64,000 bases of DNA from Streptococcus sp. NPS 308 (GTDB lineage Bacteria; Bacillota; Bacilli; Lactobacillales; Streptococcaceae), in assembly GCF_002355895.1 (NCBI RefSeq), contig NZ_AP017652.1, positions 1,087,001 through 1,151,000 on the forward strand, read 5' to 3'. Every line of letters starts with the position of its first letter. Positions within the stretch are counted from its first letter, which is position 1. Of the stretch, positions 6,556 through 44,154 are shown in pieces. The position numbers and the translations under genes are program-made. The notes beneath the pieces are model-generated. The model was not told where the DNA came from and made no database searches. It was given only the letters and a program-made list of their open reading frames with translations.

Positions 6556-7569
6556 ATGAAAGAAACTGTTTATTTTGGAACTTACACTCGTCGCTTATCT
6601 AAAGGGATTTACAAGGCAGATTTTGATACAGAAACAGGCCAGCTTGCAAACCTTGAACTTTTTGCTGCTGAACCCAGTCCGACCTACCTTACCTTTGACC
6701 AGAAACAACACTTATACACCGTAGGAAGTCAGGATGGCTTAGGTGGCATCGCTGCTTACAAGACAGATGGCGCTTTGCTAAATCACGTGGTTGAAGAAGG
6801 CGCTCCCCATTGCTATGTGGCAGTGGATGAAAAGCGTAGCCTCGTGTACGGTGCCAACTATCATAAAGGTCAAGTTCTAGTTTATAAACGTCAAGCGGAT
6901 GGTAGCCTCATCCAAACGGATTTAGATCAGCATAGCGGACAAGGTCCTCATGAAAACCAAACTTCCCCACATGTACACTATACAGACCTAACACCTGATC
7001 AGTATCTCGTGACATGTGACCTTGGTACGGATGAAGTAACGACCTACGATGTTAGTCCAGAAGGAAAACTAAGTAAACTCAATACTTATCAAAGCCAGCC
7101 TGGAGCAGGTGCTCGTCACATCGTTTTTCATCACCACTATAAGATTGCCTATCTCATCTGCGAACTGAATAGCACTATTGAGGTCTTGATTTATGATGGT
7201 GTTGGTGAGTTTGAACGCATGCAAGTTATTTCGACCTTGCCGGACGGGTATACGGGCTTTAACGGTACTGCTGCTATACGTCTTTCAAAAGATGGTAACT
7301 ACCTCTATGCATCCAACAGAGGCCATGATTCCATTGCAGTCTATACAATCCTCGCTGATGGTAGTCTGGAATTATTAGAGATTGTTCCAAGTCACGGTAA
7401 AACACCACGTGATTTTGATATCACACCTGATCAGGAATTTTTGATTGCTGTTCACCAAGATTCTGATAATGCAACGGTCTTTAAGCGCAATCCTGAAAGT
7501 GGTCGTCTTGCAGAGCTTTCTAACGACTTCCATGTCCCAGAAGCAGTTTGCATCAGTTTTTCTAACTAA
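6556..7569 (+). CDS. Lactonase-family beta-propeller protein (6-phosphogluconolactonase-like)
   Basis: The family (PF10282) includes YbhE/Pgl, which hydrolyses 6-phosphogluconolactone in the oxidative pentose phosphate route. The 337-residue protein has propeller-type repeats throughout and the conserved stretches GPHENQTSPHVHY (about 138-150), ARHIVFHHHYKIAYLICELN and HGKTPRDFDITPD. The ATG at 6556 lies 7 nt after AAGAGG; an earlier ATG at 6550 is too close to it, and a still earlier one overlaps the -10 box. It is monocistronic, between its own promoter and a bidirectional terminator. The function is inferred from the family. Confidence 0.85.
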   Translation: MKETVYFGTYTRRLSKGIYKADFDTETGQLANLELFAAEPSPTYLTFDQKQHLYTVGSQDGLGGIAAYKTDGALLNHVVEEGAPHCYVAVDEKRSLVYGANYHKGQVLVYKRQADGSLIQTDLDQHSGQGPHENQTSPHVHYTDLTPDQYLVTCDLGTDEVTTYDVSPEGKLSKLNTYQSQPGAGARHIVFHHHYKIAYLICELNSTIEVLIYDGVGEFERMQVISTLPDGYTGFNGTAAIRLSKDGNYLYASNRGHDSIAVYTILADGSLELLEIVPSHGKTPRDFDITPDQEFLIAVHQDSDNATVFKRNPESGRLAELSNDFHVPEAVCISFSN

Positions 7570-40884: not shown

Positions 40885-43167
40885 ATGCGTTTTAATCAAT
40901 TCAGCTACTTGCCCACTCCTCGTTCTCAACTATTAGATGAATTAGAGAGTCTTGGCTTGAAGCTATCATCTAAACTGCCTATAAAAAGACAGTTTGAAGA
41001 CTTCATTCGTTGGAGTTTCTTCACCTATACTAATACCGATTACGCTCTATCTACCCTAGCTGCAGATAGAGAAACGGATCTACTGACCTTCTTTCAGTCT
41101 GATAAAGAGCTGACAGCTGATATTTTCTATACCGTAGTTTTTCAACTTTTAGGCTTCAATTATCTTATTGACTTTGAGGATGCTGAGAAATTTCGTAAAG
41201 AAACTAGATTTCCTGTTATTTATGGAGATTTGATTGAAAATCTCTACCATTTGCTCAATACTCGAACCAAAAAGGGAAATACGCTCATCGACCAACTTGT
41301 TAGTGATGGACTTATTGCAGAAGACAATCACTACCACTACTTTAACGGCAAGAGCTTGGCAACCTTCTCTAGTCATGATGTCATTCGTGAAGTTGTCTAT
41401 GTAGAGAGTCGTGTGGATACTGATAAAGACGGTCTCCCTGATTTAGTCAAGGTCAGCATTATTCGTCCTCGCTATGATGGACAAATCCCTGCAGTTATGA
41501 CAGCAAGTCCTTATCACCAAGGGACCAACGACAAAGCCAGCGACAAGGCTCTCTACAAGATGGAAGGAGACTTGGAGGTCAAACCTGCCCATATTATTGA
41601 ACTTGAGAAGCCTGAGGTTGATTTTGTCGAGCCTCTTGGTCAAGCCGAACTCGTCTCTGAGTCTGAAGAAAAGCTAACTCACATCAATAGTTCTTACACT
41701 CTCAACGATTACTTCCTCCCAAGAGGATTTGCCAATCTCTATGTTTCGGGTGTTGGTACCAAGGATTCCCAAGGGCTCATGACCAATGGAGACTATCAGC
41801 AGATTGAAGCCTATAAAAATGTCATTGATTGGCTTAACGGTCGTTGTCGTGCCTTTACGGACCACACGCGCAAGCGTGAGGTCAAGGCTGATTGGTCCAA
41901 TGGCAAAGTTGCCACAACTGGCCTTTCTTATCTAGGTACCATGTCCAATGGTCTTGCGACCACTGGAGTTGATGGCTTGGAAGTGATTATCGCAGAAGCA
42001 GGTATTTCCTCTTGGTACAACTACTATCGGGAAAATGGCCTGGTAACCAGTCCTGGAGGTTATCCAGGTGAGGATTTTGACTCACTTGCTGAATTGACCT
42101 ACTCCCGCAATCTCTTAGCCGGTGACTATATCCGTGCTAATGAAGCCCACAAAGCAGATTTAGAAAAGGTAAAAGAAGAATTAGATCGCAAGACTGGTGA
42201 CTACAATCAATTTTGGCATGACCGCAACTATCTACTAAATGCTCATAAGGTTCAAGCTGAGGTCGTCTTTACACATGGTTCCCAGGATTGGAACGTCAAA
42301 CCACTTCATGTTTATCAAATGTTTCATGCTCTTCCAGCTCATATCAACAAGCACCTCTTTTTCCATCATGGTGCCCATGTCTATATGAACAACTGGCAGT
42401 CGATCGACTTCCGCGAGTCCATGAATGCCTTGTTAAGTAAGAAATTGTTAGGACTTATAACAGACTATCAACTTCCTACTGTCATCTGGCAAGACAATAC
42501 CGAACCTCAAACATGGCAGAGTCTTGATGACTTTGGCAAGCAAGATGAATTGCATACTTTCTCACTTGGAACTGAAGAAAAAGTGATTCAGAACCACTAT
42601 GAACAAGAAGATTTTGAGCGTTATGGAAAGACTTACCAGATCTTCAACACAGAACTTTACCAAGGAAAAGCCAATCAGATCACCATTGACCTTCAAGTAA
42701 GTCAAGACATTCATTTAAATGGTCGAGTTGAGCTGAAACTTCGTATCAAATCAAGTACAAACAAGGGGCTCTTATCAGCCCAACTGCTAGAACTTGGGCA
42801 AAAGAAATATCTACAGCCTTATCCAGCGGTTTTAAGTGCTAGAACCATTGACAACGGTCGCTACCACATGTTAGAAAATCTCTGTGAACTACCATTCAAT
42901 CCAAGAGCCCAACGTGTCCTCACCAAAGGTTACCTTAATCTTCAAAATCGAACCAATCTTTTGACGGTTGAAGAAATCCAACCCAATAAATGGATGGACT
43001 TCAAGCTAGAGCTTCAACCAACTATCTACAAACTTAAAGAAGGAAATACTCTCCGTTTGGTTCTCTACACGACTGACTTTGAGATTACAATTCGAGATAA
43101 TACAGACTATCACCTGACTGTCGATCTTGAACAGTCTACTCTTATTATACCTTGTCAAAAGGTATAA
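40885..43167 (+). CDS. pepX: X-prolyl dipeptidyl aminopeptidase
   Basis: This S15-family serine peptidase removes X-Pro dipeptides from peptide N termini, supplying amino acids. The 760-residue protein has an N-terminal helical domain, a catalytic alpha/beta fold with nucleophile Ser348 in GLSYLG, and the catalytic Asp and His near QDWNVKP and [10 protein letters not shown]-terminal jelly-roll domain (about 540-760) follows. Ser348 matches the position known for lactococcal PepX. A decayed second copy of its C-terminal domain follows immediately. Confidence 0.96.
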
Positions 43168-43168
43168 T

Positions 43169-43672
43169 ATACCAGACTTTCAATATGGAAGTATTCCAAG
43201 GAAAAGGCAGTCAAATTATCCATTGAACTTCCTGTAACCAAAGATTTCCACTTGAACAGTCAAATTAAACGTAAATTTTGTATCAATTCCAGTTCAAATA
43301 AGAATCTTTATAAGTCTACAGATTGAACTTGGACAAAAGATACTCCCCCCAATCAACATGTGTCACCATTTATCATACACGCTACTAGACCACATGTTGG
43401 AACTCTCTGTGAATTGACATTTAGAGGAAATTCACAACAAGCCGTGACAAAATGCTACCCTAATTGGATGATTCACTGTCATTAAAGAACATCAATGTAG
43501 ATGAACGGATTGCTACCCAGTTTATCTGCACGCAACTAGTGACAAGTTAAAAGAAGGAGATTCTCTCCCTCTAGTTCTTTATCCTACTGACTGTGAAATC
43601 ATCATACGTGACAATACCGCCTACCACCAGACTGACGTTTTCGTTCAGTCCACGCTGTACCTTTTAAAAGGA
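43169..43672 (+). pseudogene. Decayed duplicate of the pepX 3' end
   Basis: Directly after the pepX stop, the sequence aligns with pepX from about 42634 to its end. TACCAGACTTTCAATATGGAAG matches TACCAGATCTTCAACACAGAAC, and CCAAGGAAAAG is identical. Later matches include AAAGAAGGAGATTCTCTCC versus AAAGAAGGAAATACTCTCC, and CGTGACAATACCGCCTACCACC versus CGAGATAATACAGACTATCACC. The reading frame meets a TGA after about 18 codons and is broken by indels. It looks like an old tandem copy, or the displaced tail of a former pepX allele, with no remaining function. Confidence 0.88.
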
Positions 43673-43683
43673 GTACTTACTTT

Positions 43684-44154
43684 ATGAACAAATCAGAACA
43701 CAGACACCAACTTATCCGCGCCCTCGTTTCAAAAAATAAAATTCATACCCAAGCAGAATTACAAGCCTTACTAGCTGAGAATGATATCCAAGTCACACAA
43801 GCAACTTTATCACGTGATATCAAAACCATGAACCTTTCAAAAGTTCGGGAAGAAGACCAATCCTACTATGTTCTAAATACTGGTTCTATTTCTAAATGGG
43901 AGAAACGTTTAGAAAACTATATGGAAGATGCTCTTGTCATGTTACGTCCTGTCCAGCACCAAGTCATTCTAAAGACTCTTCCAGGTTTGGCTCAGTCATT
44001 TGGAGCTGTCATTGATGCCCTAGATTTCAACGATGTTGTTGCTACACTATGCGGTGATGATGTCTGCATGATCATCTGCGAAGATGCTACAAAAGCACAA
44101 GCATGTTTTGAAAATCTTAAAAAATATGCTCCGCCATTTTTCTTTAGCGAATAG
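43684..44154 (+). CDS. ArgR-family transcriptional regulator
   Basis: This 156-residue protein has the ArgR winged helix ([30 protein letters not shown], about 22-51) and the C-terminal oligomerisation and arginine-binding domain with [13 protein letters not shown]. Streptococci carry several ArgR paralogues; which one this is cannot be told here. The ribosome binding site AAGGAG falls in the last bases of the pepX remnant, so that decayed sequence now supplies its leader. A terminator follows. Confidence 0.9.

Follow-up and report, generated by a model that had tools for sequence, protein, structure and literature searches.

The window, by which we mean the whole 64,000-nucleotide stretch of Streptococcus sp. 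NPS 308 analysed here, contains an intact pepX gene (40885..43167; 760 aa) followed by an ArgR-family regulator gene, argR (43684..44154; 156 aa); these and all features located below lie on the plus strand. The pepX product is a Xaa-Pro dipeptidyl-peptidase according to NCBIfam model NF003783 (1364.8 bits, cut-off 988), and that of the downstream gene is arginine-repressor-like, its best NCBIfam model being TIGR01529 at 124.2 bits, just under the cut-off of 130.45. Judged by identity to groups of related genomes (per 300-nt window in the case of pepX), argR and the body of pepX are both oralis-type. The pepX stop (43167) and the argR start (43684) are separated by 516 bases, and within these lies a decayed duplicate of the final ~530 bases of pepX, hereafter the remnant (43170..43671).

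This second copy adjoins pepX in the same orientation, and its similarity to the working pepX tail is beyond chance. Local alignment places 42634-43162 against 43170-43671 in the same order, with 346 of 493 aligned bases identical (70.2%) and many small indels, and the match extends to the last codons ahead of the pepX stop. The alignment scores 273, whereas 500 dinucleotide-preserving shuffles averaged 32.8 (sd 4.7) and reached 56 at most. When the window was searched against itself by blastn (word 11, E ≤ 1e-6), the pepX tail and the remnant gave the sole non-self match, which covers the first 173 aligned columns. The interior of the remnant holds no open reading frame of 50 aa or more in the ORF list of the window. 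The first-pass annotation had described the spacer as aligning in order with the pepX tail and as a decayed, highly diverged and non-recent tandem copy of the pepX 3′ end; this observation is confirmed, the copy differing from the working tail by 30% and carrying frameshifts and stops.

The same annotation had proposed looking at this spacer in relatives, and the same pepX-like block is present in 36 of the 284 Streptococcus genomes that were searched, 100 of which gave any match. By identity to the window, 13 of the carriers stand at 88-92%, 22 at 78-82% and one, the early form G203, at 71%. We fetched 71 of the 100 matching genomes, the other 29 having partial or short matches only. The block sits between pepX and argR in 36/36 carriers, and the spacer is 16-18 bp in the 35 other fetched genomes, all mitis- or oralis-type; one of the latter, L148, is counted as short-spacer although an N run cuts its ORF, as its pepX end has that form. 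Presence is patchy in both groups: 30 fetched genomes are oralis-type (13 with and 17 without the remnant) and 41 mitis-type (23 with, including G203, and 18 without), these labels being set by pepX identity to the window (at least 86.8% versus at most 86.1%, a narrow gap) together with the form of the pepX 3′ end. In a contig scan, 80 pepX loci were kept of 137 confirmed. The block is present at 13 of them, argR lies 16-18 bp behind pepX at 20 (mitis, oralis, pneumoniae and kin), the pepX frame overlaps the argR start by 50 nt at 6, and no argR was found at the locus at the remaining 41. In the infantis-like L032, L035, L039, L041, L044 and L046, the pepX frame extends 50 nt beyond the start of an argR-like gene with 69-70% identity to that of the window.

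Some variation around the spacer was observed along the way. The remnant-free oralis-type genomes (L165-L181) have two argR allele classes tied to spacer length, 16 bp in 11 genomes and 17-18 bp in 6, and the argR of the window and the other carriers belongs to the 17-18 bp class. L026, with the same remnant as L139, has an insertion of ~105 bp within the remnant (~7385-7486 of that locus), bounded by AATACTC...GAGTAT, which we take to resemble the RUP repeat of pneumococcus.

The remnants have one origin. Their lesions are common to carriers across species, and in a tree of 36 remnants and 11 intact tails they form a single clade (support 100), sister to or beside the mitis-type intact tails and apart from the oralis-type tails (100). 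This set comprises the window and 35 genomes; L123/G001 was left out for an N run, and L148 is also absent from the remnant alignment. The G203 remnant branches outside all others (support 100). The oralis-type remnants form one clade (100) nested among the mitis-type remnants (supports 80 and 82), a position that conflicts with the oralis-type pepX body and argR on either side, as in a recombination tract. An earlier tree of 45 tails (from the 80 loci) and 13 remnants (the window and 12 loci), which left out the L008 and L023 tails and the L008 remnant, likewise recovered one remnant clade (100) inside the mitis/oralis group, its exact place there being poorly supported.

The join between unit end and unit start is still recognisable in G203 and in the window. 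In G203, the sequence left of the junction is identical to the end of that genome's remnant (CTTGTCAAAAGG; there an AG comes next, in the Shine-Dalgarno sequence of argR), and on the right the sequence follows an internal pepX site 534 bases before the stop: GG, seven partly matching bases, then TA(C/T)CAGAC. We therefore read the junction (43161..43169) as a tandem duplication at a 2-nt match, in which the unit ended with the GG of the Shine-Dalgarno sequence of argR and was fused there to an internal GG of pepX; in the window the common GG is at 43161-43162, followed by 7 nt that match pepX weakly. A TATAAT at the junction is not conserved among carriers. A pattern search of the 284 genomes with up to 2 mismatches did not find the undecayed parent allele from before the duplication, the sole exact match being G203's remnant.

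At its other end the remnant carries the ribosome binding site of argR, as had been claimed: the Shine-Dalgarno sequence AAAAGGAG (43666-43673) stands 10 nt before the ATG. This is true as sequence. A better description is that the site belonged to the downstream gene from the start and was retained by the downstream copy: in relatives without a remnant, a motif of this kind overlaps the stop codon of pepX. L135 carries the remnant, yet the 22 bases that precede its argR are identical to those of 8 remnant-free relatives, and this points to recombination into the 3′ end of its remnant.

Coding constraint was lost in the second copy, as its frameshifts, stops and near-even rates of change at the three codon positions indicate. 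Counted at sites identical in all the mitis-type intact tails compared, the rates at positions 1/2/3 are 0.27/0.26/0.28 in the remnants of oralis-type carriers, 0.24/0.25/0.35 in those of mitis-type carriers, 0.22/0.21/0.34 in G203 and 0.28/0.26/0.24 in the window; for working oralis-type pepX they are 0.10/0.035/0.32. Differences between positions are not significant in the window (p = 0.85) or in G203 (p = 0.14); on the stem leading to the non-G203 remnants, Fisher's test of the third-position excess gives p = 0.084. This pattern fits decay from the outset at the first origin in the mitis clade. Since third-position rates are somewhat raised in mitis-type carriers, in G203 and on the stem, a small amount of earlier coding divergence is possible as well. 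A sister chromosome and closely related DNA are both compatible with the data as the source of the upstream copy.

We carried out several searches for a function of the remnant itself. When ORFs of at least 20 aa were grouped by stop column, none was widely shared, the best being common to just 18 of 36 remnants (minus strand) and the next to 17 of 36 (plus strand). No Rfam match was obtained at E ≤ 1. Two sigma-70-like promoter sites are present versus 1.7 expected, which is the chance level, and the sole terminator-like site is on the minus strand (0.2 expected). RNAalifold draws a long helix at an inverted repeat (43354..43400) whose arms are 43354-43362 and 43391-43400 (CAACATGTG ... CACATGTTG); the changes in its arms are one-sided, a pair is broken in 4 of 35 remnants, and neither a known-family match nor two-sided covariation was found that would indicate a structured cis-regulatory RNA. 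On these grounds, roles in protein coding, as a structured RNA and as a promoter were rejected. The inverted repeat is absent from G203 and formed inside the remnant after the split from that early form. Template switching could have copied its left arm from its right arm, which is suggestive only: the score is 25, and 2000 shuffled sequences gave a mean of 16.5 and a maximum of 28.

The more general idea that the block is kept as a putative leader or spacer, setting argR expression apart from that of pepX, draws on several of these observations. Mitis-type carriers are more alike in the 3′ two thirds of the remnant (84-91% per 60-nt bin) than in the first third (67-79%), the remnants differ overall less than linked 4-fold sites do, all 10 pairs of the inverted repeat are retained in 31 of the 35 non-G203 remnants, and the block has crossed species. 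It is conceivable, then, that the decayed copy was kept and passed between species as a new putative leader that would change the response of the ArgR-family regulator, with ~0.5 kb of untranslated, hairpin-bearing RNA replacing a 16-18 nt link in which pepX stop and ribosome binding site overlap; on that view, what had been a dead gene end would have turned into a regulatory module capable of transfer. The negative searches above speak against this, as do the one-sided changes in the repeat and the 35 close relatives that live without the block, and L135 illustrates how the 3′ end can be renewed by exchange with remnant-free DNA. We regard the general idea as unlikely, and the detailed version of it, like the proposed change in the regulator's response, as equally doubtful.

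Which part of this locus is foreign can be read from its borders. The pepX of the window has its highest mean identity to remnant-free oralis-type genomes in every 300-nt window. At 30-nt resolution, the two windows at -150..-90 do not discriminate the groups, and the last 60 nt change to the mitis type: over the last 30 nt, mitis-type carriers match the window at a mean of 88.5%, remnant-free mitis-type genomes at 72.9% and remnant-free oralis-type genomes at 49.6%. In the window (43114..43167) and in L111 this mitis-like tip spans 54 nt, against ~28 nt in the other 11 readable oralis-type carriers, junctions being readable in the window and 12 further oralis-type carriers (L111-L122) and hidden by an N run in L123. 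When oralis-type carriers are compared with mitis-type ones, third-position identity rises from 37% at -120..-60 of pepX to 82% at -60..0 and falls to 50% over the first 78 bases of argR, where identity at 4-fold sites is 19%. The remnants of the two groups are 79.5% alike (all sites, 80 pairs of a subset), whereas whole pepX genes of oralis-type and mitis-type genomes agree at 46-49% of 4-fold sites. Similarity to the other species is thus far above that of the flanks, with sharp borders on both sides, and together with the mitis-like tip these identities mark a tract of ~570 bases that crossed between the mitis-type and oralis-type groups, the pepX tip being its left part. The 4-fold and group means used 11 of 17 oralis-type genomes without the remnant, 8 of 14 with it (window included), 10 of 22 mitis-type genomes with it and 9 of 18 without, plus G203; the comparisons of pepX ends and tract borders used 16, 13, 21 and 17 genomes of those groups, with G203 absent from most rows. 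The pepX codon alignment left out L148, L123, L172 and L126 (N runs, broken or incomplete reading).

It might be argued that the duplication is older than the split between oralis and mitis and was inherited vertically in both, with many losses, as both groups have carriers with the same lesions. However, the remnants are far more alike between groups than the 4-fold sites of pepX, the mitis-like stretch ends at the tract borders, and the remnants join the mitis-type rather than the oralis-type intact tails, which makes this history quite improbable. The first-pass proposal that a foreign pepX came in and displaced the resident gene, leaving the resident tail behind in the window's lineage, finds room in the 30% difference between the two tails and in the slight, non-significant third-position excess of the stem, which would allow pepX DNA of close kin to have been inserted when the remnant first arose in the mitis clade, but it is not borne out and is highly improbable, given an oralis-type pepX body beside a mitis-like tip and remnant, oralis-type remnants nested among mitis-type ones, borders of the tract that fall ~54 nt before the end of pepX and at the argR start, and near-even codon-position rates. 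Its roles appear to be reversed: in the window's lineage the foreign part would be the remnant and the last ~54 nt of pepX, with the pepX body native and oralis-type.

We consider it probable, taking these comparisons together, that an old tandem duplication arose in the S. mitis lineage, decayed, and later passed to an S. oralis-like lineage through DNA exchange. An ancestor belonging to the S. mitis clade would have duplicated the final ~530 bp of pepX, extending to the argR ribosome binding site, in tandem, the ends being joined at the 2-nt match between the GG of the argR Shine-Dalgarno sequence and the GG of an internal pepX codon. The downstream copy, without a start codon, would then have decayed while the upstream copy stayed as the end of the working pepX. 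The decayed block, together with the last pepX bases, would have moved later by homologous recombination into the oralis-type lineage that includes the window. Natural transformation is known in these streptococcal species and is presumably the route. The direction from mitis to oralis is suggested by the grouping of the remnants with mitis-type tails, by their nesting and by a mitis-like tip on an oralis-type gene. Several points count against this account. Node supports for the nesting of the oralis-type remnants are 80 and 82. Divergence among the remnants is lower than at linked 4-fold sites, and lower in the 3′ two thirds than in the first third, which is unexpected if the remnants are strictly neutral, as they would be here. 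No undecayed parent allele was found among the 284 genomes searched. Finally, the transferred tract is short and flanked on each side by oralis-type sequence, which implies that any longer mitis flanks were lost to subsequent exchange.

Elements of this history have parallels in the mitis group. The 9.2-kb patAB tandem duplication of pneumococcus is reported with just two identical bases at its join (PMC4432121), and it resembles the pepX case in being tandem, in those two bases and in occurring in a mitis-group species; as described there, however, it is large, recent and unstable and raises expression, whereas the pepX remnant measures ~0.5 kb, is old and decayed, and has become fixed in many genomes. 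Pneumococcal transformation can produce tandem duplications (merodiploids), there at longer repeats (PMC3784515). These too are tandem duplications in a naturally transformable streptococcus, but by that account they need a repeat common to donor and chromosome, and the pepX junction shows a GG match only. The interspecies mosaic genes of the mitis group, such as the penicillin-binding protein genes (PMC8715442, PMC8321556), similarly have gene ends from another species with sharp borders; in contrast to what is described for those, the cargo at pepX is a pseudogene fragment without known advantage. A literature search limited to titles and the starts of abstracts found no description of this pepX duplication among its top matches, and a distant-mode search of a plasmid collection gave no match.

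The remnant is most likely a genetic fossil, ordinary in kind and unusually well documented. As a scar it is polymorphic: some close relatives carry this ~500-bp fossil and others lack it, and it occurs at varied stages of decay, with its junction recognisable and its species-crossing borders clear. It suggests that exchange between mitis-group species involves debris of no known use as well as useful alleles, and it can serve as a near-neutral yardstick next to a housekeeping gene. The tight spacing of pepX and the ArgR-family regulator is broken in 36 of the 71 fetched mitis- and oralis-type genomes, which is relevant to studies of this regulator.
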